The translations under genes were made by a program, and so were the position numbers. Under the pieces are notes generated by a model. It was not told where the DNA came from and did not search any database. It saw only the letters and a program-made list of their open reading frames with translations. Positions 12,414 to 43,361 of a stretch of 64,000 nt of DNA are shown here, piece by piece (within the stretch, counting starts at the first letter, position 1; each line of letters starts with the position of its first letter). The stretch comes from Candidatus Dormiibacterota bacterium. GTDB taxonomy: Bacteria; Chloroflexota; Dormibacteria; Dormibacterales; Dormibacteraceae. The stretch lies in contig JAMXLM010000018.1 in assembly GCA_024280995.1 (NCBI GenBank), positions 62,001-126,000 on the forward strand, in the 5' to 3' direction.

Positions 12414-12638
12414 TCAACCACCTCCAAACGGACCGCGGTGCGGCGTCGAGGTCAGGCTTATGACCTCGTACCCGCGCAACGCGTCGAGAAATGGTTGAAA
12501 GCTGCCGAGGACCAGGCAGCTCAGGACACTGCCCCGCACCTTGACTTCCGCGACGCCTGACGCGCGCGCGATTTGTCGGTCCGGCGGCCGGCCAACGAAG
12601 GTCACCTCGACTCGGTGACGCGGTAGCTCTTGAAGCAT
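12414..12638 (-). pseudogene. C-terminal fragment of an ABC transporter ATP-binding protein
   Basis: The 74-codon frame (RVEVTFVGRPP, GVAEVKVRGSVLSCLVLGSFQPFLDALRGYEVISL) looks like the regulatory tail that follows the nucleotide-binding domain in DrrA/CcmA-type ABC ATPases. Walker motifs and the ABC signature are absent, and the usual LEEIF-type ending is missing. It is probably a remnant of a gene broken when the island formed; an independently used small protein is the alternative. Confidence 0.5.
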
Positions 12639-12740
12639 GCGGTCAGCCTGCGCGAGCTACCGGGGCGGGCGAATCTACAGGATTATGGATTCGGTGCTTA
12701 GACGTCCTCAGGGCCCAGGTCGGTAAGTTCGATACAGACC

Positions 12741-15035
12741 ATGGCAAGGCCTCGCCGGCGTTCGGGCAACCTACCGGCAGAACTCACGAGCTTCATCGGC
12801 CGGCGCCGCGAGTTGGCCGAGATCCGAAAGAGGCTCACAACCGGCCGGCTTGTGAGCCTGGTAGGGCCTGGTGGCGTGGGTAAGACTCGGCTCGCGATTC
12901 GGACCGCTGCTGAGCTGGGTCGTGGCTTCTCCGACGGTGCCTATCTGGTCGAGCTGGCCGAAGTCCGTGATCCTGCCCTCGTAGCCAACGCTGTGTTGGA
13001 CGCTCTCGACCTTCGCAACGAGGCGGCGAAGAAGCCTCATGAAATCCTGGCCGCGAGCCTCAAAGAAAAGCGGCTGTTGCTCGTCCTCGATAACTGCGAG
13101 CACCTCCTCCAGGCCGCCGGTCAACTCGGCACTGAAGTCCTTCGTGCTGCGCCCGACGTGAAGGTGATCGCTACCAGCCGCGAGCCCCTTCAGGTGGGCG
13201 GCGAGCAGGTGGTACCTATCGCGCCGCTCGAGCTCCCAGAGACGGGGGAATCGCTCGCGGCGTTGAAGCGGAACGACGCCGCGATGTTGTTTGAGGAGAG
13301 AGCCGATGCGGCGTCCGGCTCGTTCGAGCTATCAGCGTCGAACCAAATCGCGGTCGCGAGCTTGTGCCGCCGACTCGACGGCCTGCCGTTGGCGATTGAG
13401 CTCGCAGCGGTGAGAACCCGGGTGCTCACCGTTGAAGAGATCCTTGCCCGGCTGGACGATCGGTTCGACCTCCTGACCGGAGGTAGTCGGGCCGCTCTGC
13501 CGAGACATCAAACGCTGCAGACGACCATCGACTGGAGCCATGACCTCCTGACTGAGCCTGAAAGGATCTTGTTGCGACGACTCTGCGTGTTTGCCGGCCG
13601 ATTCCCTCGCGAGGACGTCCAAGCGGTTTGTGCATCCAAAGGACTCCCCGCTGCATCCGTCGTTCATCTGCTGTCCTCATTGATCGAAAAGTCCCTTGTG
13701 ATGAAAGAGGAGTTCAAGGGCCAAGTTTGCTATCGGCTGCACGAGACGATGCGTGAATACGCGAGTCTCAAGCTGGATGACGCTCGTGAGAAGGATGAGA
13801 TCGAGAATCGCCTGGTCGAGCATTACCGGACGACCTGTCTCGGGCTAATCGACCAGCAGCGCCACGGCCTCGTCCAGTGGCTTGGGTGGGTCGACCTGGA
13901 AATCGACAACATCCGCTCAGTCCTTCAGCGCTGCCTGGAGCGCAGGCAATTCGCCGCTGGGATCGACATTGCAGCTTCACTCGCCTACTACTGGGTCACG
14001 CACGGGACGACCGAGAGCATTCGGTGGCTGGACAGACTGTTGGAACCCGGTGAGGGATCTATGCCGACCCTTACGCGAGCGTATGCGCTGCGGGGCTGGT
14101 TGAGTCTGCTGCAGGGCGATCCAACGGCGGCCACTCCGTGGACAGTTCGAGCCGTGGCGATGGCTCGCAAGACAGAGGACCTGTCGTTGCTGTCGCAATC
14201 GCTGTCAATCGCGGCTACTGCAGCCGATGTTGGCGGCGACGCCTCGGGAGCGACGCGCTTTCTGGAAGAAGCCGAGACGATTAACGCTGGTCTCGAGGAC
14301 TACGCGGCGAGGATCGAACTGTTACAGGCATACGGAGTCCACGCGTTTTTCGTGGGCGATGCCGATACCGCCAGGACGGTCTCACTTGAGGGAGCACGTC
14401 TTAGCCGCGAAGCCGGCGACCTGTTTCTTCTTGAGTCGATGCTTCGGAATCTCGCGATGAATGCGATGGGCACCGGCGACCTTGTGTCGGCCAAGAGATG
14501 GATGCTTGATGCGTTGCGGGTGGTGCGCCAGATCGACCACCGGATCTCGCAGTACTACCTGCTAACCGTTCTTGCATGGCACGCTGACAGCTCCGCCAAT
14601 CCGAGACTTGCGGCGCAACTGCTCGGGGCTGCCGCAAGCGTGGGGACCGAGGCCGGCGCAGGCATTGTCGGTCCTCAGGCTTCGGTGACCGCCCAGACGA
14701 CGGAGTCAATCATTCGCACTGTAGGAGAGGCAAAGTTCGAATCCGATTACAACGCCGGCAAGCGTATGGGTCGCGAACGCGCGATGCGGCTCGCGTTGGG
14801 CGAACCGGATCCGGAAGATGCCGGGGTCGCAACGGAGACAGCTTCGGGAACACTCGCAAGGCGCGAGGTGGAGGTAGCCCACCTTGTGGCCGAAGGGCTC
14901 AGCAACAAGCAGATCGGAGCGCGCCTCTACATTTCAGAGGGCACTGTCGCGACTCACGTTCGAAACATAATGAACAAGCTCGGCGTGAACTCGCGGGCTC
15001 AGATCGCGAGCTGGATGGCATCGTCCGCGCGGTAG
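12741..15035 (+). CDS. LuxR-type STAND regulator (NB-ARC-like ATPase, TPR-like middle, LuxR HTH)
   Basis: The 764-residue protein begins with [14 protein letters not shown] and the P-loop VGPGGVGKT (41-49). [12 protein letters not shown] (Walker B-like), VIATSREPL and GLPLAIELAA follow, the classical AfsR/SARP-like STAND ATPase set. A helical repeat region spans about 350-690. The LuxR helix-turn-helix is at the C-terminus (LARREVEVAHLVAEGLSNKQIGARL, then VATHVRNIMNKLGV). Architecture and motifs match the protein at 38128, so the two are paralogs. Its base composition is much lower in GC, supporting transfer with the island. Confidence 0.9.
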   Translation: MARPRRRSGNLPAELTSFIGRRRELAEIRKRLTTGRLVSLVGPGGVGKTRLAIRTAAELGRGFSDGAYLVELAEVRDPALVANAVLDALDLRNEAAKKPHEILAASLKEKRLLLVLDNCEHLLQAAGQLGTEVLRAAPDVKVIATSREPLQVGGEQVVPIAPLELPETGESLAALKRNDAAMLFEERADAASGSFELSASNQIAVASLCRRLDGLPLAIELAAVRTRVLTVEEILARLDDRFDLLTGGSRAALPRHQTLQTTIDWSHDLLTEPERILLRRLCVFAGRFPREDVQAVCASKGLPAASVVHLLSSLIEKSLVMKEEFKGQVCYRLHETMREYASLKLDDAREKDEIENRLVEHYRTTCLGLIDQQRHGLVQWLGWVDLEIDNIRSVLQRCLERRQFAAGIDIAASLAYYWVTHGTTESIRWLDRLLEPGEGSMPTLTRAYALRGWLSLLQGDPTAATPWTVRAVAMARKTEDLSLLSQSLSIAATAADVGGDASGATRFLEEAETINAGLEDYAARIELLQAYGVHAFFVGDADTARTVSLEGARLSREAGDLFLLESMLRNLAMNAMGTGDLVSAKRWMLDALRVVRQIDHRISQYYLLTVLAWHADSSANPRLAAQLLGAAASVGTEAGAGIVGPQASVTAQTTESIIRTVGEAKFESDYNAGKRMGRERAMRLALGEPDPEDAGVATETASGTLARREVEVAHLVAEGLSNKQIGARLYISEGTVATHVRNIMNKLGVNSRAQIASWMASSAR

Positions 15036-27088: not shown

Positions 27089-27361
27089 TCAGCGGTAGAA
27101 ATACGGGTCGAGGACGCTGACCTCGGTTATCCGGTCGACGGGCAGCGAGTTCTTGCCGGCGGTCTTGCGAATCGCCTCCGGGCTCGGTCCGTCGTAGATG
27201 CAGAAGGTCTTCCGCTTGTCGTCGGTGACGTACGAGTGGATCCACGTGACGCCCTCATCGGCGTTGCGGCCCACGACCGTCAGGCACGTGGCCGAGCCTT
27301 CCGCCGTCATCGGGATCAGCAAGCCGTCCGGAAAGGTCCTTTCGACGAGATACCTGGGCAA
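27089..27361 (-). CDS. DUF4242 (nickel-binding-like) small protein
   Basis: The 90-residue protein starts at TTG 27361 with AAAGGAGG seven bases upstream. PRYLVERTFPDGL, VTWIHSYVTDDKRKTFCIYDGPSPEAIRK and PVDRITEV are typical of DUF4242, a dimeric alpha/beta barrel fold. It is divergent from the large LuxR/AAA regulator; a second DUF4242-like gene at 37778 likewise neighbours a LuxR-type regulator. Function unknown. Confidence 0.8.
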   Translation of the reverse strand: MPRYLVERTFPDGLLIPMTAEGSATCLTVVGRNADEGVTWIHSYVTDDKRKTFCIYDGPSPEAIRKTAGKNSLPVDRITEVSVLDPYFYR

Positions 27362-27520
27362 CTTGAGCCTCCTTTCGTTTTTGGTTCGAATGCGCGCGGA
27401 GCTCAAGCTAGGGGTCAGGAGAAAGCCGGGCATCGGGACAACCACCCAGATTGCGAGGGGCGGCCACCCATCTTTTGTCCCTTGATCGGAACGCCCGCCC
27501 GGAGCACCATTTCTCCCCAT

Positions 27521-30133
27521 ATGGCCACCCTTCAGGCAGCTCCGCTCCTCGAGCGCTCGGCGGAGCTTGGGACGCTTGCCGAGCACCTCGATCAGGTGGT
27601 GGCGACGCAGGCCGGCCGTCTCTTCTTGATCGGCGGCGAGGCGGGCGTCGGCAAGACCGCGCTGGTCCGGAGCTTCTGCGCCGCCAGTCCGCGCACGACG
27701 GTGTTCTGGGGAACCTGTGATCCACTCTTCACGGCCCGCCCGCTGGCGCCGTTCGCCGACATCGGCGCAGCGGCCGGCGGCGAGCTCGACCGGCTGGTCA
27801 ACGGCAACGCGCGTCCATATGAGGTGGCCGCCGCCCTGCTCAACCTGCTGCGAAGCAGCTCACCGTCGATCGCCGTCCTCGAGGACCTGCACTGGTCCGA
27901 CGAAGCGACGCTTGACGTGCTCCAGCTGCTCGGCGGGCGCGTGGATTCGGCCCCCGGTCTTGTCATCGCGACGTACCGCGACGATCAGCTGGGGCGCGAC
28001 CATCCGCTGCGAAGGCTGCTGGGCGAGATGCCGCGCCACGACTCGGTCATACGGATCACGCTGCAACCGCTATCGCCGGCGGCGGTCGCCAGGCTGGCAG
28101 CGTCTCGCCACCTCGACGCCGACGAGCTCTATCGCAAGACCGCCGGCAATCCTTTCTTCGTAACCGAGGTCCTCGCGTCCGACGACGACTCGATCCCAAG
28201 CACCGTGCGCGACGCGGTGCTCGCCCGGGCTGCTCGACTGTCGGGGCGCGCGCGTTCCCTGCTCGATGCCGTGGCGGTGGAACCTCATCAGGCCGAGCTC
28301 TGGCTGCTGGAGGCGGTCGCGCCCTCGAGCTTTGGCAGCCTGGGCGAATGCCTCGACGCCGGGATGCTCGCCCGGAACAACGGATCCGTCGGGTTCAGGC
28401 ACCAGCTGGCTCGCGTCGCAATAGAACAGTCGATTGCTCCAGACGAGACGCTCCATCTCCATCGCCTGACGCTCAACGCACTGGAGACCTCAACCCGGGG
28501 ACCGCTGGACCCGGCGCGGCTGGCCCATCACGCGGCCCTGGCCGATGCATCCGCGGCGCTGCTTCGCTATGGACGCGAGGCCGGCCGGCGAGCGTCAGCG
28601 GTTGGTGCTCACCGCGAAGCCGCGGCGCAGTTCGAACGCGCCTTGACGGTCGCGGACGGCGCGCCGCCGATTGACCGCGCTCAGCTCCTCGAGGAGTTCG
28701 CCCACGAGAGCCTCCACATCGCAAGAGTCGACCGCTCCATCGAGGCCGAAGAGAAAGCCGTCGCCCTGTATAACGCGGCCGGCGACTCCAGGCACGAAGC
28801 GATTGCCCTTCGCCGGCTTTCGCGGTTCTACTCGTGCGGCGTTCGCGGATCGGAGGCCCGGCAACCTATCGACCGCGCGGTCGAGATTCTCAAGGACCTG
28901 CCGCCGAGCGGCGAGCTGGCTATCGCTCGAGCAATGCTTGCTTCGTTCGACATGGACGCGGGTGACGCCGAGTCCGGACTCGCCGAAGCACGCGCCGCGG
29001 TTCAAATCGCCGAGCAGTCGAACGACGAAGTGGCCATCGTCTACACCTTGAACAGCCTCGGCAGCTTCGAGCTCTGGCTCGGACACGAAGCCGGCCGGGA
29101 GAAGCTGCTCCGAAGCCTGGATATGGCAGATGAGCTGGGAATGGACGAGGACGTCGGCCGGGCGTTCCTGAACATAGCGTCCATCTCGGTCGGCTCCCGC
29201 CTGTACGAAGGACTGCTTCCGCTCATCGGCCGGGGCGCCGAGTACTGCTCGCAGCGAGGCCTCGAGCTGTGGCGCCTGTGGCTGCTCACATCGGAAGCGA
29301 AGGTGCACCTCGACCGCGGCGATCTCTCCCGGGCGGCCGAGGTGGCCGAGGAAGTGCTGCGTGGCGAGCGGGGCGAGCTGCCTCGGATCGTCGCGCTGCC
29401 GGTGCTCGGGCTTGTGCGCGCCCGGCGTGGTGACCCACACGTGTGGCCCCTTATGGACGAGGCGAAGGCGATGTCCGACGTCGATGGTTCACCTGGTTAC
29501 CAGGTGCCAGTCGCGGTCGCACGAGCCGAGGCGGCGTGGCTCGACGGCAGGCCTGAAGCCATTCGCGACGAAACCGAGTTCGTCTACCGCCGGGCCGTAT
29601 CGGTTGGGGCATGGTGGGACCTTGGTGAGATCAGCTGCTGGCGGCGGCGAGCCGGCATCGAGGACGTCGACATCCATCCCAGGCTTGCGGACCGCTACGC
29701 GGCGGAGCTCAGAGGCGATTTTGCGGAGGCAGCCGGCCTGTGGACGACGCTGGGCTGCGACTACGACGCGGCGATGGCGCTCGCGGCGTCAGACGACGAA
29801 GACCTGCTCAAGCACGCGCTCGTGAAGCTGCAGCAGCTCGGCACCCGCGCGGCAGCGGCAGCGGTTGCCCGCAAGCTGCGCGCCCGCGGCGCGACCGGCA
29901 TCTCCCGAGGCCCCAGGGCCTCGACCCAACGCAATCCGGCGCTGCTCACCGACCGCGAGATCGAGGTGCTCGAGCTCATCAACGAGGGCATGCGCAACGC
30001 TGAGATCGCAAAGCGACTCTTCGTCACGCCGAAGACGGTCGACCACCACGTGTCGGCGATCCTGCGCAAGCTGGCCGTCGACACCCGCTCGCAGGCCGCG
30101 CGCGAGGCCACCCGACTCGGACTCGTCAGCTAA
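27521..30133 (+). CDS. LuxR-family regulator with AAA ATPase and TPR-like repeats (MalT/LAL type)
   Basis: The 870-residue protein starts MATLQAAPLLERSAELGTL with the P-loop GGEAGVGKT (38-46) and Walker B AVLEDLHWSDEATLD, the AAA_16 set of large LuxR regulators. Helical repeats fill about 350-790, and the LuxR helix-turn-helix is at the C-terminus (LTDREIEVLELINEGMRNAEIAKRL, then VDHHVSAILRKLAVD). Such proteins act as ATP-dependent, ligand-triggered activators. The upstream 160 bases include GGGACAA and, 33 bases on, TTGTCCC, a possible site. Confidence 0.9.
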   Translation: MATLQAAPLLERSAELGTLAEHLDQVVATQAGRLFLIGGEAGVGKTALVRSFCAASPRTTVFWGTCDPLFTARPLAPFADIGAAAGGELDRLVNGNARPYEVAAALLNLLRSSSPSIAVLEDLHWSDEATLDVLQLLGGRVDSAPGLVIATYRDDQLGRDHPLRRLLGEMPRHDSVIRITLQPLSPAAVARLAASRHLDADELYRKTAGNPFFVTEVLASDDDSIPSTVRDAVLARAARLSGRARSLLDAVAVEPHQAELWLLEAVAPSSFGSLGECLDAGMLARNNGSVGFRHQLARVAIEQSIAPDETLHLHRLTLNALETSTRGPLDPARLAHHAALADASAALLRYGREAGRRASAVGAHREAAAQFERALTVADGAPPIDRAQLLEEFAHESLHIARVDRSIEAEEKAVALYNAAGDSRHEAIALRRLSRFYSCGVRGSEARQPIDRAVEILKDLPPSGELAIARAMLASFDMDAGDAESGLAEARAAVQIAEQSNDEVAIVYTLNSLGSFELWLGHEAGREKLLRSLDMADELGMDEDVGRAFLNIASISVGSRLYEGLLPLIGRGAEYCSQRGLELWRLWLLTSEAKVHLDRGDLSRAAEVAEEVLRGERGELPRIVALPVLGLVRARRGDPHVWPLMDEAKAMSDVDGSPGYQVPVAVARAEAAWLDGRPEAIRDETEFVYRRAVSVGAWWDLGEISCWRRRAGIEDVDIHPRLADRYAAELRGDFAEAAGLWTTLGCDYDAAMALAASDDEDLLKHALVKLQQLGTRAAAAAVARKLRARGATGISRGPRASTQRNPALLTDREIEVLELINEGMRNAEIAKRLFVTPKTVDHHVSAILRKLAVDTRSQAAREATRLGLVS

Positions 30134-36170: not shown

Positions 36171-36911
36171 CTATTCGGCAACGGCCACTGCACCGCTCGG
36201 AATCGCCCGAGCTTCGCGCCTCGGCATTCGCCACGCGAAGACGATGAGGTAGGCGCCGGCGAGGACCGGGATGGCCTGCGAGGCGTAGCTCGGGATGGCG
36301 CCCTCCGCGGCAAATCCCGCTTCGCCCAGGATCCAGCCGACGGCCAGGTTGCCGGCGCCGGCGATGGCAAGCAGAACCCCGATCGGCCGGGAAACGCGGC
36401 CCGTCCACAGGATCAGGCCCGCAAGCACGACCATCGACAGCCCGATCATGTAGTTCTGGTAGCTGCCGCTCGCTTCCTCCATCCATCGCACCGTCTCAGC
36501 GTTCGCGAACCGCGCTGCCGCTTCCGACGCCGGCGCGGTCACCCACGCGTTGACCGCTCGTTCGAGGACGACGCCGTCGATGAACATTCGCACGGCGCTG
36601 AGCGCGATGGCCACGACCGCCGACACGGTCGCGAGCCGAACCACCAGTCGTGAGATCTCGCCGTGCACATCGAGCGCCTCGATGAGAACAAGGAGCGCCA
36701 CGATCGAGATGAAGAACGACACGAAGAACAACAGGTGGTCCGGCGTCCAGCCGGGCCAGTGCGAGTACTGGGTGAACGACGCGACGTGATTGTTGGGATC
36801 GATTCCGTTCGGATGAAAGCGATTGGCGACTATCAAGACGACGTAACCGAGGACCATGAGCACGCCCGAAACGATCACCGACGTCCGCTGAACCGAATTG
36901 GTGCCTTGCAT
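36171..36911 (-). CDS. Multi-pass membrane protein of unknown function (DUF4386-like layout)
   Basis: The 246-residue protein has seven hydrophobic segments; GAGGAGGAG precedes the ATG. An outside loop with RFHPNGIDPNNHVASFTQ follows segment 1, as the FPGDT/HPPDT loops do in the proteins at 24076 and 11616. It is divergent from the gene at 37102, and the 190 bases between them hold the perfect CGTAG palindrome, so it is a candidate target of the STAND regulator at 38128. Confidence 0.7.
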   Translation of the reverse strand: MQGTNSVQRTSVIVSGVLMVLGYVVLIVANRFHPNGIDPNNHVASFTQYSHWPGWTPDHLLFFVSFFISIVALLVLIEALDVHGEISRLVVRLATVSAVVAIALSAVRMFIDGVVLERAVNAWVTAPASEAAARFANAETVRWMEEASGSYQNYMIGLSMVVLAGLILWTGRVSRPIGVLLAIAGAGNLAVGWILGEAGFAAEGAIPSYASQAIPVLAGAYLIVFAWRMPRREARAIPSGAVAVAE

Positions 36912-36988
36912 TTCTCCTCCTCGTGAATGCCGCGTCTGGGCGGCTCGAGGGCAACGCTAGGAGCCGGCCCGACACCGGCCATCGGAAG

Positions 36989-37012
36989 AAACACGTAGCC
37001 GGCTACGTGTTT
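36989..37012. promoter_or_regulatory. CGTAG palindrome, site 1
   Basis: A perfect 24-base palindrome (12 bases each side of 37000/37001) with core ACGTAGCCGGCTACGT. It lies 78 bases upstream of the leftward gene start at 36911 and 90 upstream of the rightward start at 37102. Sites 2 and 3 share the CGTAG-N4-CTACG frame. Confidence 0.75.
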
Positions 37013-37101
37013 TGCCGGATTGCCGCGCTGGGGGTGAGACCTAGCTTCTGCTCATCGAAAGCGGCGCACATCGCCGCCGCAAGTCAAAGGAGGAATCGGA
37101 G

Positions 37102-37731
37102 ATGAAACTCCAACGTCTGGCCGGTTTCGGACCCGCGGCGGCCTTCGTCAGCGCCGCGTCCGTCGTCGTTTTCGCGGCCATCCAGCAGGTTGGCGCCGCC
37201 GTCCCGCCGAGCTACCTCGTCCCGGTGATCGTCGCGTTTCTCGCGTCCATGGCCGTTTTCGTTCTCGCGCTGGCTGTGACGCTGTTCGACCTCGAATGGC
37301 TCGACCACCCGGCAACAAGCAAGCCGTGGATCCGATTGGCGCTCGTGGCCACACTGGTCGCAGCGGCGATGCCGACCGTCCTTGGCCTGATCCAGTTCGC
37401 CGCCGTTCCCTTGGACTTTGCGATCCCCTACACGATCTATTTCCTCGGCATCGGTGTCGGCCTGCTGGTCCACGGCATTGAGGGCCGGCGCGCTGGAATC
37501 GTCCGAGGACCGCTGGCCTGGCTCGGAATCGTCCTCGGCGCATTGTTCATCGTCCAGAGCGTTCTTCAGTTCCTGGTGTTGTTCACGTTCGCCCTCGTGA
37601 TGGGCGCCTACTACGGACTTCCGATCATCTACATCACGTACGTCGTCTGGGCGATCTGGATGGGCGTGCACCTGTTGCGATCGCGGTCGAAGTCCCCTGC
37701 TCCGGTCAGAGCTGCAGCCGCTGCCAGCTGA
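37102..37731 (+). CDS. Multi-pass membrane protein of unknown function
   Basis: The 209-residue protein follows AAAGGAGG and has six to seven membrane segments, with a short charged C-terminus (LLRSRSKSPAPVRAAAAAS). No family is recognised. It shares the promoter region of the divergent membrane protein gene, including palindrome site 1, and ends before a strong terminator. Confidence 0.7.
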   Translation: MKLQRLAGFGPAAAFVSAASVVVFAAIQQVGAAVPPSYLVPVIVAFLASMAVFVLALAVTLFDLEWLDHPATSKPWIRLALVATLVAAAMPTVLGLIQFAAVPLDFAIPYTIYFLGIGVGLLVHGIEGRRAGIVRGPLAWLGIVLGALFIVQSVLQFLVLFTFALVMGAYYGLPIIYITYVVWAIWMGVHLLRSRSKSPAPVRAAAAAS

Positions 37732-37751
37732 TCCACCATCGCGGTCAGATG

Positions 37752-37785
37752 AGAGGGCCCGGCCGTCGGGCCCTCTTTTAGTTTT
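37752..37785. terminator. Strong rho-independent terminator
   Basis: AGAGGGCCCG, loop GCCGT, CGGGCCCTCT (37752-37776) followed by TTTAGTTTT. The 10-bp stem plus T tract serves the rightward membrane protein gene, and it overlaps the last codon of the convergent DUF4242-like gene. Confidence 0.88.
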
Positions 37786-38056
37786 CCAGGTCGACCGCGA
37801 GCTCCAGGACGTCCATCGGCGCCTGCGCGATCTCGGCGACGCTGCGCACGACCTCGACGCTGCCGGCGAGAAAGTAGCTGAGCAGGCGATCTCGGCCGGG
37901 CAAGAACGTCGACCGCAGATACCGGACATGGTTCCCCCGAGCGGTCACCCGCGCGCAGGCTTCGACCAGCGCGGAACGCAGGAGCTCCAACTCGACGTCG
38001 GTGATGCGCGGCAGCCGGTGCTCGGCAAGAAAGAGTCGCTCGTGGTCCGATTCCAT
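37778..38056 (-). CDS. DUF4242-like small protein
   Basis: The 92-residue protein reads VEACARVTARGNHVRYLRSTF, GSVEVVRSVAEIAQAPMDVLELAV. This lines up with VTWIHSYV...PSPEAIRK...PVDRITEV of the DUF4242 protein at 27089, so I assign it to the same fold. Palindrome site 2 is centred 55 bases upstream of its start. It lies 71 bases downstream of the STAND regulator on the same strand. Confidence 0.7.
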   Translation of the reverse strand: MESDHERLFLAEHRLPRITDVELELLRSALVEACARVTARGNHVRYLRSTFLPGRDRLLSYFLAGSVEVVRSVAEIAQAPMDVLELAVDLEN

Positions 38057-38099
38057 CAGCGTGCACGCTAGGTGTGGCCCTCGCGCGCGGCATCGTCGT

Positions 38100-38123
38100 A
38101 AACCCGTAGGCCGCTACGTAATC
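38100..38123. promoter_or_regulatory. CGTAG palindrome, site 2
   Basis: Core CCGTAGGCCGCTACGT with CGTAG at 38105-38109 and CTACG at 38114-38118, four bases between. It sits in the gap between the STAND regulator's stop and the DUF4242-like gene. Outer bases match site 1 only in part. Confidence 0.65.
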
Positions 38124-38127
38124 TCCG

Positions 38128-40410
38128 TCAACCCACCCAGCGCGCCAGCTGCGTCCTGGAATTCAGTCCGAGCTTGTTCATCATGTTGGTCACGTGGGTC
38201 TCCACCGTCCGGCTGGAGATGAAGAGCCGGGCCGCCACCTCGCGGTTGGTCAATCCCTCCGCGATGAGCCGCGCGATCTCCATCTCCCGCTTGCTGAGCG
38301 TCGTGGCCGAGGGCGCGGTCGTAGCCGCGACGGGCTTCGATACAACCTTACGCAGCGCGTAATCGGCCGCCTCCGCGACCGACATCGCCAGGCCTGTCGC
38401 ATACGACTTCGCGAACGCCGAGTCGCCGAGACGATCTTTCGTCCGCGCGTGGCATTCCTCGTGCTGGGTCACGAATGGGGCGAGCACCGGAATCGACATG
38501 GTCTGACGTAGCGTTTCGGCGGCGCCGAAGAGCGTGGCCGAGCGCGCATAGTCGTGGCGGTCCGCCGTGATCCACGCCAGGGTTTCGATCAGGATGGCGA
38601 GGCCACGACGGTCGTCGAGCGCCTGCTTGCATTCGATGCCTTCGCGAACGTAGACCTCCGCCTGGTCGAGCTCGCCTCGACGACGCCTGGCTTCAGCCAC
38701 GGTGTTGGCGAGGGTGCCTCGCACGTAGACGTTGCCGAGCTTGCGCAGCGCGGCGAGCGCATCGTCCCCGAGCGCGACGACGTCGTCCACCTTGCCCTGC
38801 CCCAGCCAGTTGAGGCACTGGTAGTGCTGCGAGATCGCGACCAAACCGGGGTGGGCACTGGAGACTCCCGCCTCATGCATCTGTTCCACGAGTGCGTCGA
38901 CGCCCTCGCGCTTGCCCTGGATGAAGTCGGTGAAGAGCAGTGAGCCGCACGCCCATCCCGCCAGGTTGGCGTCACCCAGGGCGGTGGCGAGCTCCAGGGC
39001 TTCCTTTCCCGCCGTTTCGCCGGTCGCGGCGTCGTCCATCGCGTCGGCGAACAGCGCGATCCCGATCAGGCAGCGCACACGGCTCGTCGTATTCGGCTGG
39101 GTGAGAGCAAGCGCCGTTTCGAGGTATCTGCGAACGTCCCGCAGCGGACCTCGGGACAGCCAGTAATTCGTGAGCGTGGCGACGATCGCAACTCCGGCAT
39201 CGGACTCGCCTGCCTGGCGCTGGCAAAAGTCGAGGGCGGTCCACACGTTGTCGCGCTCGCGGCTGACACGGACGAATGCCAGCGCCTCGTCGGCTCCGAA
39301 CACGTCGGTGCCGGACAGAAGATGGGTGACCCAGTCCCGGTGTTTGGTCTGGACCACAAGCTCCTCGCCCAGCTCGCGGAGCTTGCGCCGTCCGTACTGG
39401 CGGACGGTCTCGAGCATCGAGTAGCGGGGCGGGCTCGAGGTCGCGTCGCGCTGCAGGATCGACGCCTCGACCAGGCCCGCCAGCACGTGAGAGAACCCAT
39501 CGCCATCGGCGCAAACCGCCGTCGCCGCCTCTTCTTCGAAGCCTCCCGCGAAGACCGACACCCTGGCCCACGCCCTGCGCTGCTCGTCGGTCAGGAGCGA
39601 ATAGCTCCAGTCGAGCGTCGCCTCCAGGGTTCGCTGCCTTTGCTCGCCTCCGCGCAGCGCGGACGAGGGCGCGGACAGCTCACTGTCCAGGCCGGCGAGC
39701 AGCTGCTCCGTCGAAAGGCCCTCCAGGCGCACCGCCGCGAGCTCGAGGGCGAGGGGCATGCCGTCGAGTCGTGCACACAGCTGCATCACTGCGGGCGCGT
39801 TGGCTTCGTTCACGCCGAACTCCGGCTGCACCGCCCGCGCCCGTTCGACCAGAAGGGCGACCGCGTCGAAGGCGGCGAGGCGACCCGGCGTCAAGCCGTC
39901 CGCGGCGTCCGGAAGGGAGAGCGGCGGAACCCGCAGCCTCACCTCGGCCGCCATGCCCAGGGCCTGCCTGCTGGTCGCCAGGATCCGGAGCTCCGGACAC
40001 GCCTTGAGCAGAGTCCCCGCGAGCACGGCCGCGCTGTCCAGCAAGTGCTCGCAGTTGTCGAGCAAGAGAAGCATGCGCCGGTCCCGCAGGTGGTCGATGA
40101 GCGAGGACATCGACCAGCGGGAGGACACGTCCTGGAGCCCGAGCGCGCTGAAGACCGCCTGGGTCACGAGGAGGGGGTCGTCGATCGGGGCCAGCGCCAC
40201 AAGGCAAGTGCCGTCCTTGAAGTTGCGCGCCATCTCGGACGCCGCACGAATGGCCAGCCGCGTCTTCCCCGCTCCGCCGCTTCCGGTCAGGGTCAGGAGG
40301 CGCGTCGTGCCGAGGAGCCGTTTGATCTCCGCGAGCTCACGGCGCCGGCCGACGAACGACGACAGCTCGGCCGGCAGGCTGGGCCTGTAGGGGGCCGTTC
40401 GAGCCGCCAT
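38128..40410 (-). CDS. LuxR-type STAND regulator (NB-ARC-like ATPase, TPR-like middle, LuxR HTH)
   Basis: The 760-residue protein starts [19 protein letters not shown] with the P-loop TGSGGAGKT near 41, [20 protein letters not shown] and [15 protein letters not shown]. Helical repeats fill about 350-690. The HTH is at the end ([25 protein letters not shown], then [14 protein letters not shown]). It is a paralog of the island regulator at 12741 but has the high GC of its neighbours. It sits at the centre of the three CGTAG palindromes, which resemble LuxR-type boxes, so it is their likely binder; that is inference. Confidence 0.9.
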
Positions 40411-40422
40411 TTGGTCGGCAGA

Positions 40423-41817
40423 TTACACGGCGGCCACGGACTCGAGCGAAGCGGCCCGCTGGCTCACCCCGTACCGAGACAGCAGCACGGCGGGAAGCAG
40501 GGCGCCCGGGATGATGACGTAGGCGAAGTAGCCGATGTAGCCGGCATTCGCCGTGGCCGCGAACAGCGGTCCGATGATCAGTGGCGAGATCATCGCGCCG
40601 ATGTGCCCGAAGCCGTCGGTCCAGCCCGTCCCGACGGCCCGGATCCGCGTCGGGTAGGCAACGGCCGTGTACGTGTACATGTTGAAGAGCCACAGGTACA
40701 GGCCGGCGGTGACCACGCTGGACGAGATCGCAAGCGCGGGCAGGCTGTGCAGGTACGAGCCGGTGATGAACGTAAGGACGAGCCCGATCGAAGCCACCAC
40801 GGCCCCGGCCAGGATCACGTCCTTGCGCTCGAAACGCTCGTTCAGCCGACCGGCGATGAAAAGGCCGGCGCCCGCGCCGAAGATGCTGGCGATAAGCCCG
40901 GCGGTAAAGATGGCCTGGGCGGAGAAGCCCACCTTCACGAAATAAAGGTTGATGAACCCGAGCGGGCCGTATACCAGTCCGCTGTAGCCAAGTATCCAGC
41001 AGACGAGGAGCAGCACGGTCCGGCCGCGAAAGCGCGGACCGAACAGGTCACGTACGCCTGCCTTGGGTTCCGCGACTACCTCGCCGATGGCCGGGTCGCG
41101 CAGAGTGCCGGCCCGGGTTTGCGACTCACGTTCGAGCCGGCTGGTGACCGCGTCCGCCTCCCCGCCACGCCCATGCGCGTCGAGCCAGCGCGGCGATTCC
41201 GGCAGCAAAAGTGCAACCAGCGGCACCACGACGAAGAGCGGGCCGGCGGCGATCAGGACCACGAGGAGCTGGTAGTGCTGCGGCATCAGGATCAGGGCGG
41301 AGAGGTTGCCGAGCACGTTCAGCAGCATCGGCGCGACGGCCTGCGTGGTCTGAGTCATCCGGCCGCGCACCTCTTTCGGCGCGACCTCGGCCATGTAGAC
41401 GATGTTTGTTGCCAGCACGCCACCGATCCCGGCGGCGCCCAGCCCGAGGCCGGCGGCGAGCACGTAGAAGTTGCTGGTGAAAGCTGCGACCACCGTGCCG
41501 AGGCCGCACGTCACCGCCGCGGCGATCAGAATGCTGCGCCGTCCCAGCTGGTCGGACAGCACCGCGAAGGCGTATTCGCCGAGGACGATCCCGGCTCCGG
41601 TCGAAATGACCAGCAGCCACGAGAAGTGGGCCAGGTCGAAGGCGTTTTGCGGGCCCCAGACGAACGGGTAGATCCGCGCCGCGATGCCGTCGGACAGCAG
41701 CGCGAACGCCCACGCGACCTGGGTCACGAGGCCGAGGCGCCACAGCGTCCAGGTCAGCGGCAGGCGGTCGAGCCGCTGGCCGATCGTCGCCTGGGGGGCG
41801 GCAGCGACCGTGGCCAC
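40423..41817 (-). CDS. MFS transporter (sugar/aromatic-acid porter-like)
   Basis: The 464-residue protein has 12 membrane segments. AVLSDQLGRRSIL (motif A), LLPESPRWL after segment 6 and YTYTAVAYPTRIRAVGTGW in segment 10 are features of the sugar porter/SV2-like group. GTG start at 41817. Palindrome site 3 is centred 56 bases upstream, the same distance as site 2 to its gene. It lies 12 bases upstream of the STAND regulator gene on the same strand, so the two may form one transcript. Confidence 0.85.
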   Translation of the reverse strand: MATVAAAPQATIGQRLDRLPLTWTLWRLGLVTQVAWAFALLSDGIAARIYPFVWGPQNAFDLAHFSWLLVISTGAGIVLGEYAFAVLSDQLGRRSILIAAAVTCGLGTVVAAFTSNFYVLAAGLGLGAAGIGGVLATNIVYMAEVAPKEVRGRMTQTTQAVAPMLLNVLGNLSALILMPQHYQLLVVLIAAGPLFVVVPLVALLLPESPRWLDAHGRGGEADAVTSRLERESQTRAGTLRDPAIGEVVAEPKAGVRDLFGPRFRGRTVLLLVCWILGYSGLVYGPLGFINLYFVKVGFSAQAIFTAGLIASIFGAGAGLFIAGRLNERFERKDVILAGAVVASIGLVLTFITGSYLHSLPALAISSSVVTAGLYLWLFNMYTYTAVAYPTRIRAVGTGWTDGFGHIGAMISPLIIGPLFAATANAGYIGYFAYVIIPGALLPAVLLSRYGVSQRAASLESVAAV

Positions 41818-41861
41818 GGCGCGAACGGTAATCCCTCACGGCCGCCCTGTCACAGGGCCCG

Positions 41862-41885
41862 AAATACGTAGGCGGCTACGGGTAG
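41862..41885. promoter_or_regulatory. CGTAG palindrome, site 3
   Basis: Core ACGTAGGCGGCTACGG with CGTAG at 41867-41871 and CTACG at 41876-41880. It lies between the divergent starts of the MFS gene (41817) and the sensor-like gene (41922), so it could control both. Confidence 0.65.
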
Positions 41886-41921
41886 ACCCGGATTGCAGCC
41901 GCGCCGCCGCCACTTAGCCTC

Positions 41922-43361
41922 ATGGTCGTGATCAGGTCGGCAAGGGTTGCATGGGCGCTCGGGCTCTCTGGGGCCGCCGGGTGCACGGTCGCGACCGGCC
42001 TGAGCATCGGTCTCGGAACCGCGGACCAGCTTCTCACCTCGGCTTTCGGGTTGGCCTTCGGCGTTCTGATGGGAGTGCTGGGCGCGTTGATCGCATCGCG
42101 CCAACCGCGTAACAGCATCGGCTGGCTGATGTGCGGTACTTCGCTCGCGACGAGCCTCGTCAGCTTGCCTACCAACTACGCATACGCCGCGTTGGTGACA
42201 ACCCGAGGTGCGCTGCCGCTGGGCACCCAGATGCTGTGGTTTGCGACCTGGGCGTCCATTCCCGTCTTCGGAGTGTTCTTGCCCTTCATCCTCGCGCGCT
42301 TCCCAGATGGACGGGTGCGGGCTCGGTGGAGGTTTGCCGGTTGGCTCGCCGTCCTCGGTACGGGATCGTGGATCCTCAGCATCGCGTTGTCGCCGAACGA
42401 TGTGCCGCTCGCGCCGCCGCGGGTCGAAGCCGCGCTGCTGCCCTTCGCGAGAAATCCGTTTGGGTTTTCGCCCCCGATGGTGGTGCTCTCGTACCTCTAC
42501 ATGGGTGGCCTCGCCACGATCGTCGCCGCGTATGTCGCCGCGGCAGGGGCTTTGGTGGCTCGTTTCCGCGTCGCTTCGCACGAGGACGCCATCCGTCTCA
42601 AGTGGTTCGCCTACGCGGGAGCTCTTGTCGCGCTCACCGTCGTCTACGCGGGCGTTGCCTGGGATCGAGGCGTCTACCTTGGCGACGCGCTGGTCCCGTT
42701 CGAGCTGACGGCGGTCGCCCTGCCGGTCGCGATCGGGATCGCGATCCTCCGCTACCAGCTGTTCGACATCGACCTGATCATCAACCGGACGCTTGTATAC
42801 GTCGGCGTCACAGCGATCCTCAGTGCGCTCTACACGGCGGTGCTCACCTTCATGAACCGCTACTTCATCGCCGCGACCGGTCAGAAGTCGGATGCCGCTT
42901 ACGTGATCACCGCGTTCGCGGTGGTCGCGGCATTCGGTCCGTTGAAAGACTGGCTGCAGCGGCGCGTCGACCGGCGACTAGGCGGTGCGACGGCCTCGGC
43001 CGCGCTCGATCGTTTCGCGGTCGAGGTGGAGACGGTGGTAGCAGTAATGGACGTCCAGCGGGTCGCGTGCATGCTGGTCGACACGGCGGTCACCGCGTTC
43101 GACGCCAGGAGCGCCGCGGTGTACGTGCAGTCGGAGGAGATCTACTGCCGCGGCCACATGAACGGCGATCCGGTGCTCGAGATCATGCTCCGGCACGACG
43201 GCCGGTCTGTCGGCCGTCTGGTGCTCGGCACTCGGCGGGGCGACGCGGCCTACAGCCGGCGCGATCGCGAGGCGCTCCAGCGCTCGGCCGATTCGGTGGG
43301 CGAGGCGCTTGCGCTGGCCACGCGCTTCGGCCACCGGCCGCAGGTCGCGCCCGCCAGGTAA
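41922..43361 (+). CDS. Kinase-less membrane sensor with GAF-like domain
   Basis: The 479-residue protein has about eight membrane segments and the linker ILRYQLFDIDLIINRTLVYVGV...DWLQRRVDRRLGG. This matches the sensor half of the kinase at 18980 (IVVHRGVDIDDVIRRSVVYG...ELEKVADRLVFG). A GAF-like domain follows (about 365-470). The phosphorylated His box and the HATPase domain are absent, and the frame ends cleanly. It may sense and signal without phosphotransfer, or have lost its kinase. Confidence 0.75.
   Translation: MVVIRSARVAWALGLSGAAGCTVATGLSIGLGTADQLLTSAFGLAFGVLMGVLGALIASRQPRNSIGWLMCGTSLATSLVSLPTNYAYAALVTTRGALPLGTQMLWFATWASIPVFGVFLPFILARFPDGRVRARWRFAGWLAVLGTGSWILSIALSPNDVPLAPPRVEAALLPFARNPFGFSPPMVVLSYLYMGGLATIVAAYVAAAGALVARFRVASHEDAIRLKWFAYAGALVALTVVYAGVAWDRGVYLGDALVPFELTAVALPVAIGIAILRYQLFDIDLIINRTLVYVGVTAILSALYTAVLTFMNRYFIAATGQKSDAAYVITAFAVVAAFGPLKDWLQRRVDRRLGGATASAALDRFAVEVETVVAVMDVQRVACMLVDTAVTAFDARSAAVYVQSEEIYCRGHMNGDPVLEIMLRHDGRSVGRLVLGTRRGDAAYSRRDREALQRSADSVGEALALATRFGHRPQVAPAR

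Follow-up and report, generated by a model that had tools for sequence, protein, structure and literature searches.

A putative operator and composite promoter of a STAND-type LuxR regulator in a Dormibacteraceae bacterium

Background

Regulators of the STAND-LuxR (LAL) type, among them MalT, SCO6993 and TpdR, share an N-terminal P-loop NTPase, a length of several hundred residues and a C-terminal GerE domain. They are numerous in genomes such as the one studied here, yet little is known of the DNA sites that they use. According to the available part of PMC6099782, TpdR (788 amino acids, aa) activates its neighbouring operon, MalT binds direct repeats, and a direct repeat was suggested by the authors for TpdR. 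SCO6993 binds palindromes that differ from one another, with a consensus that its authors call not predictable (available part of PMC9628970). Here we analyze a 64,000-nucleotide stretch of an uncultivated soil bacterium, Candidatus Dormiibacterota bacterium (assembly GCA_024280995.1, contig JAMXLM010000018.1, positions 62,001 to 126,000; below, the window), in which three CGTAG-N4-CTACG palindromes (boxes 1 to 3) lie around the gene of a 760-aa regulator of this type. Unlike MalT, TpdR and SCO6993, the locus has one conserved inverted repeat at a fixed distance from a -10 hexamer, and this element does not match the MalT-type direct-repeat boxes GGA[TG]GA as given in the available part of PMC9628970.

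Two further groups of GerE proteins invite comparison. Operators of the NarL/FixJ/ComA type also consist of two inverted half-sites with a short centre, although we know of no such family with the half-site CTACG. The lux box bound by LuxR proteins that respond to acyl-homoserine lactones is likewise a dyad of about 20 bases, recognized by a GerE domain upstream of a promoter, but it is centred at about -42, whereas the centre would be near -53 here. The regulator also differs from both groups in its domains, since neither a receiver nor an autoinducer-binding domain is among its six Pfam matches at E 0.001. No published description of the box was found in the open-licence literature, which is a weak test of its absence from print.

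Results and discussion

Three boxes confined to one locus

Very probably, the three boxes are operators from which the regulator encoded at 38128-40410 activates transcription; this prediction is built on sequence comparison. The initial annotation had reported the three sites and proposed the regulator as their ligand. All three sites were recovered where it had placed them (Table 1). The core pattern has three matches in the window versus 0.02 expected from shuffles, and none of 100 shuffles reached three. The random spread over the genome that the annotation had named as an argument against itself was not seen: in the whole assembly (3,021,951 bases, 46 contigs) the core occurs at three places, all inside the regulator's 5-kb locus. 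The reversed control pattern has 15 places in the same assembly, so the core is not abundant, and its unusual feature is the clustering of every copy in one locus. Searching with the 24-mer in degenerate form and tolerating as many as three mismatches returned the same three places, with none for the control.

In the genomes of the family, the core palindrome alone has matches in 28 of 42, mostly at one or two places each. Nine wider stretches with such matches (L067-L075) were examined individually. Their flanks are unlike the 24-mer by eye, a tblastn search of them gave no regulator homolog, and these nine were taken as chance matches.

Table 1. Coordinates of the boxes, promoter elements and genes in the window
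Feature	Coordinates	Strand	Remarks
Diverged paralog-group promoter	12645..12703	-	Between 74-aa gene (12414-12638, -) and paralog regulator (12741-15035, +)
Tail GATGCC-N18-TAGCTT without CGTAG box	27405..27434	-	Before second SCO4226-like gene (27089-27361, -)
246-aa membrane protein, predicted target	36171..36911	-	Hydrophobicity by eye; no Pfam match
Promoter tail, 246-aa membrane protein	36954..36983	-	GATGGC, 18 bases, TAGCGT; held-out score 39.0
Box 1, AAACACGTAGCCGGCTACGTGTTT	36989..37012		Perfect 24-base palindrome; shared by two divergent promoters
Promoter tail, 209-aa membrane protein	37018..37047	+	GATTGC (37018-37023), 18 bases, TAGCTT (37042-37047); held-out score 32.5
209-aa membrane protein, predicted target	37102..37731	+	Hydrophobicity by eye; no Pfam match above cut-off
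92-aa DUF4242/SCO4226-like protein, predicted target	37778..38056	-	Homolog of regulator-paired gene in relatives
Promoter tail, DUF4242-like gene	38065..38094	-	GATGCC, 18 bases, TAGCGT; held-out score 38.3
Box 2, AAACCCGTAGGCCGCTACGTAATC	38100..38123		4 bases past regulator stop codon
STAND/LAL-type LuxR regulator, 760 aa	38128..40410	-	P-loop at the N-terminus, middle predicted mostly helical, GerE domain at 704-758
MFS carrier	40423..41817	-	Aromatic acid/H+ symport as top NCBIfam match, below cut-off
Box 3, AAATACGTAGGCGGCTACGGGTAG	41862..41885		Close relative of box 1
Promoter tail, sensor-like gene	41891..41920	+	GATTGC, 18 bases, TAGCCT; held-out score 35.7
479-aa sensor-like membrane protein, predicted target	41922..43361	+	ATG at 41922, GTG at 41928; GAF below cut-off

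A promoter tail at a fixed distance from the box

The sites had been described as symmetric palindromes. They are real, but the conserved unit extends beyond them into a larger promoter composite with a tail on one side. As the alignment of the box sides indicates, CTACG is followed by 10 bases, GATNNC, 18 bases and the -10 hexamer TAGNNT on four of the five gene-facing sides. A TANNNT stands exactly 39 bases past the C of CTACG on these four sides, with a chance of about 1.7e-6 by a simple estimate from the TANNNT frequency in the three gaps and 60 offsets, and on each of the four GATNNC is present as well, 18 bases ahead of that hexamer. Box 2 lacks the tail on its other side, toward the 3' end of the regulator gene. 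At L092 (position 7159) a 14-mer identical to the box falls within the coding sequence of a paralog regulator; it has no promoter tail and was rejected as a candidate.

Start codons fit this layout. The DUF4242-like gene has its ATG 9 bases after the -10 hexamer and would by inference be leaderless; the sensor-like gene has a GTG 8 bases after it and its ATG 2 bases after it. The 246-aa and 209-aa membrane genes start 43 and 55 bases past the -10, the latter with AGGAGG upstream.

Among 16 promoter-facing sites that we collected, the exact CGTAG-N4-CTACG is present in 5, ACGTA in 15, CTACG in 14, GAT in 15 and (T or C)AGNNT in all 16; by inspection, the conserved element is the inverted repeat ACGTA-N5-CTACG. 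A matrix built from 12 foreign sites placed the four sites of the window at ranks 1-4 in the 64 kb, with scores of 32.5-39.0 against 8.8 for the next place. In a held-out test over 8 loci, with the matrix trained without each locus in turn and the near copies L064 and L133 left out together, the held-out sites were the top match of their own locus in every case. The window is the clean case of this test. On 410 kb of reversed control the first matrix reached a maximum of 14.1. A looser search of the window's own genome for CTACG plus tail, with one mismatch allowed, gave 11 matches, four of them exact and identical with the promoters described here, versus 8 for the control.

The following course of regulation is predicted. 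A signal received through the STAND module would activate the regulator, two C-terminal GerE domains of which would grip CGTAG-N4-CTACG as a dimer. The box centre lies 41.5 bases before the -10 hexamer, which would place it at about -53 from the transcription start. The bound regulator would then recruit RNA polymerase, with GATNNC in place of a -35 element, 18 bases before the TAGNNT -10. The predicted targets are the two membrane proteins, the DUF4242-like protein and the sensor-like membrane protein, served by three boxes and four clear promoters, and the MFS carrier together with the regulator may form a fifth unit. An inverted repeat at about -53 next to a non-consensus -35 suggests an activator in contact with RNA polymerase.

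The same arrangement could be read as that of a repressor that binds the boxes until a signal releases the promoters, and some LAL proteins do repress, SCO6993 for example (available part of PMC9628970). We consider this unlikely. The box is located 5' of the -35 region, clear of both the -10 and the start; the -35 stretch is not TTGACA-like, as is generally the case at activator-dependent promoters; and the distance from box to -10 is the same in all 16 collected sites, though the matrix requires that frame.

The regulator and the genes around the boxes

The P-loop of the regulator, GSGGAGKT, is at residues 43-50. Its AAA_22 match scores 27.7 bits against a cut-off of 27, whereas the NB-ARC, nSTAND1 and AAA_16 matches are below cut-off. 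The GerE domain (PF00196, 76.7 bits) matches chains of NarL, GerE, VraR, DevR and ComA by sequence. A weak structure model, with a mean predicted local distance difference test score of 59.6 from an alignment of 4 sequences, is nearly all helix between residues 330 and 686.

The gene context given in the initial annotation, a divergent pair of membrane proteins around box 1 and an MFS carrier divergent from a sensor-like protein, is confirmed, and no kinase domain was found in the 479-aa sensor-like protein. Its distances from box centre to gene start are also accurate, 55.5 bases for the DUF4242-like gene (38056) and 56.5 for the MFS gene (41817). The possible local regulon that the annotation proposed is supported toward four genes, where the composite is present, but not on the MFS side, which has no tail. 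The MFS gene ends 12 bases before the regulator gene, and the two probably form one operon.

The DUF4242-like label is a weak one: the PF14026 score of the protein, 19.9 bits, is below the cut-off of 28.5. The protein is a homolog of the DUF4242 protein of relatives. It is 51-53% identical to the homologs beside box-carrying orthologs and 36-42% identical to those at four other regulator loci. It is also a distant relative of SCO4226, which binds nickel (available part of PMC4186839); the main text of that paper, as far as available, contains no mention of LuxR and names no such regulator. Given membrane proteins and a possible metal or small-ligand binder among the targets, and an F420-type reductase gene further on in the related locus L064, one may guess at a response to envelope stress or toxic compounds.

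Conservation of the composite at regulator orthologs

The composite, with TAG or CAG at the -10, precedes regulator orthologs of 45-48% identity in other genomes, where it serves an operon of DUF4242 gene and regulator and, in the opposite direction, a membrane gene. The closest regulators belong to genomes G108 (50% and 48%), G010 (48%), G054 (47%), G100 and G026 (41% each). As the initial annotation had anticipated for orthologs, the box is kept upstream in G010, G054, G108 (copy C38) and L133, as well as before a DUF4242 homolog at a contig end (L132); at copy C36 of G108 it is weak. In G010, G054 and the second G108 copy the DUF4242 gene adjoins the regulator gene, and the boxes mostly read ACGTAC-N4-CTACG.

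Five loci (L064, L100, L101, L132 and L133) carry two outward-facing composites 108-125 bp apart. One of the two is directed toward the DUF4242 gene, with a 54-aa gene or a part of it between in four of the five loci; the start of the L132 homolog of DUF4242 lies 8 bases past its -10. The second composite is directed toward a membrane gene. This is DUF4386 at L064, L101, L133 and L100; at L132 a small gene comes first and DUF4386 follows. The conserved 54-aa protein (LIEFIWACE...DAAIKYG; L064 3038-3199, also in L133, L100, L099 and L103) has no Pfam match, and in several relatives its gene is the first to follow the box.

In the aligned gaps of four of these loci the boxes stay, while the sequence between them has drifted, as judged by eye. 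This drift also bears on the idea that the palindromes serve a structural role, as RNA hairpins, terminators or mobile-element repeats, with no regulator involved. The position of box 2 just behind the regulator's stop codon and the perfect symmetry of box 1 would suit such elements, but a loopless palindrome would make a poor hairpin, Rfam gave no match at the palindromes, and there are three copies only, all of them promoter-associated and with constant spacing to a -10. We give this idea almost no credence.

Searches on a larger scale gave a similar distribution. Across 110 genomes of the class, CTACG with the exact tail occurs at 21 places in 16 genomes, versus 2 for the reversed control. 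Nine of the 21 are at regulator loci, in 4 genomes that all have an ortholog; at the remaining 12 no locus exceeds a matrix score of 18.2, versus 44.5-56.9 for the 12 training sites. A longer composite pattern was found in 6 stretches among 84,980 species genomes. Four of these carry a DUF4242 gene, three with the full regulator and one (L132) ending at the contig edge within the regulator start. L134 and L137 are records from which the scan pattern was partly drawn, and L132 and L133 are new; the genomes of the remaining stretches, L135 and L136, gave no regulator match at E 1e-80. In the partial genome of L132, the only other relative of the regulator is 33% identical. A search with the regulator protein gave matches in 40 of the 42 family genomes, whereas a protein scan of the 84,980 species genomes found no relative, and a draw of 400 genomes from the phylum gave no ortholog beyond the known ones at E 1e-135.

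One of these records deserves a separate remark. Contig QHVV01000057.1 (L133), assigned to Acidobacteria gp7, shares 90.9% identity over 4,328 bases with a Chloroflexi CF_47 contig that has the same sample label in its title. It was either misbinned or transferred.

Box and recognition helix

The full box was compared with the recognition helix of the regulator at each locus, with searched flanks that vary from about 1.5 to 10 kb. All five compared loci whose regulator has the helix TVETH(V/I)T(N/H)M, with the triple E-T-T (residues 737, 738 and 741 of the window's regulator), carry the full box (window, L064, L100, L101 and L133). L099 (TAESHIVNI, E-S-V), whose regulator is 49% identical overall, keeps mainly the near half of the box (score 25.9), and at L102 (TVDSHVLNI, D-S-L) no box was found in 12.4 kb. 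At L066 (E-T-E), the tail precedes the DUF4242 gene with TACGTAG alongside. The box thus changes along with the recognition helix. The regulator of L065 (10580-12860) has a C-terminus that departs from the usual frame after GFSS in the assembly.

This correspondence also helps to judge whether some other DNA-binding protein, for example another GerE protein, occupies the boxes while the regulator is a co-regulated neighbour. The genome offers 26 GerE matches, each of which we read from its coordinates, but the triple E-T-T is found in this regulator only and in 0 of the 25 others. Box strength follows the helix of this regulator, box and ortholog co-occur in families f1, f2 and f4 of the class, and the Pfam scan, which covered part of the neighbour genes, detected no further DNA-binding domain among them. 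A different binder is hence highly unlikely.

Several observations weigh against the regulator as activator at these boxes, or limit how far the evidence for it reaches. The MFS-facing side of box 3 has no GAT and its TANNNT is at offset 41, not 39, with a matrix score of -9.5. The MFS-regulator side is thus without a tail, so that autoregulation in this genome is no more than a possibility; in relatives, by contrast, the regulator gene itself lies behind a box. The G100 ortholog (40%) has no box in a stretch of 12.4 kb. The L065 regulator (E-T-E) has a composite about 1.8 kb away with a changed near half, which at 40.6 is the only one of the other helix types compared to approach a box in score, and L103 (E-T-S) has, at 12595-12653, a promoter before the 54-aa gene with the half-changed box TACGTAG...AGTACTGA. 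The positions of the helix triple were placed by analogy with the base-contacting ones of NarL. In a tree of 27 regulators, those with the box group with L099 and L102 and are not one clade; the box requires 3 changes, the starred branches force 3, and a number as low was seen in 5 of 500 shuffles. Related sequences, moreover, are not independent events, and it was the first matrix that originally picked out the L065 and L099 sites as well as the second ones at L100 and L132, so that their high held-out rank is not independent either.

A second box and a shared tail at other STAND-LuxR loci

A second box emerged once the geometry of the first family was no longer required in the palindrome search. 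In paralogs with the helix TVDSHVRSI, RAATCGGTGATTCCACS or a near variant immediately precedes GATTYC, which is followed by 18 bases and by TAGGCT, TAGCTT or a similar hexamer. This promoter is on the side away from the regulator, upstream of a short gene (about 70-80 aa), and an ATG or GTG follows 7-9 bases past the -10 hexamer in 12 of 12 cases, a leaderless layout. The set comprises 12 loci picked by paralog clade, with sites partly from hand-written patterns. In the held-out test the site was the top match in 11 of the 12 loci, with scores of 28.7-48.1 and at most 11.3 for the next place. The failure was L098, the diverged promoter of the window (Table 1), whose regulator has the helix TVATHVRNI. 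The 74-aa protein beside it (GSFQPFLDAL) has no Pfam match above cut-off, and a similar GSFQPLLDAV protein starts behind the first-family box of L132.

The window holds five copies of the tail itself, GATNNC-N18-TAGNNT: four at the boxes and one at 27434, before a second SCO4226-like gene whose product is a clear family member (77.4 bits); this gene is divergent from a third large LuxR gene, which has an AAA domain (about 27521-30133, +). Spacers of 16, 17, 19 and 20 gave no match in the window, and the reversed control gave one at spacer 19. If C is permitted for the first T of TAGNNT, two further matches appear, both inside genes (29902, 42089). In 406 kb of loci chosen by their regulators there are 21 matches at spacer 18, compared with at most 2 at spacers 15-17 and 19-21 and 2 for the reversed pattern at 18; one of the 21 (L133, 6019) is at no clear promoter. 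In 225 kb not chosen by regulator, where overlapping stretches are partly counted twice, there were 0 matches and 2 for the reversed control. Because the 406-kb set was chosen by regulator and holds near copies, the enrichment of the tail is a strong hint and not a genome-wide count.

We propose tentatively, as a possibility that we somewhat hesitate to favour, that STAND-LuxR regulators of the phylum share a GATNNC-N18-TAGNNT promoter class that is rare elsewhere, each subfamily having a private upstream box that can be read from the helix. In that case GATNNC would act as a -35 element, recognized either by a specialized sigma factor or by a surface that these regulators share.

Conclusions

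Three features go beyond the initial annotation: the tail, the putatively leaderless starts and the presence of the layout at further STAND-LuxR loci. The recurrence of this layout with a different box at related regulators hints at a readable recognition code. A site, a promoter layout and a helix-linked change of the site could be derived for an uncultivated group from its genomes alone, which makes target prediction for many STAND-LuxR regulators testable. The results suggest a natural set of mutually insulated pairs of activator and promoter. If the shared promoter class is real, these bacteria would possess a modular code of insulated activators, each private to its locus.

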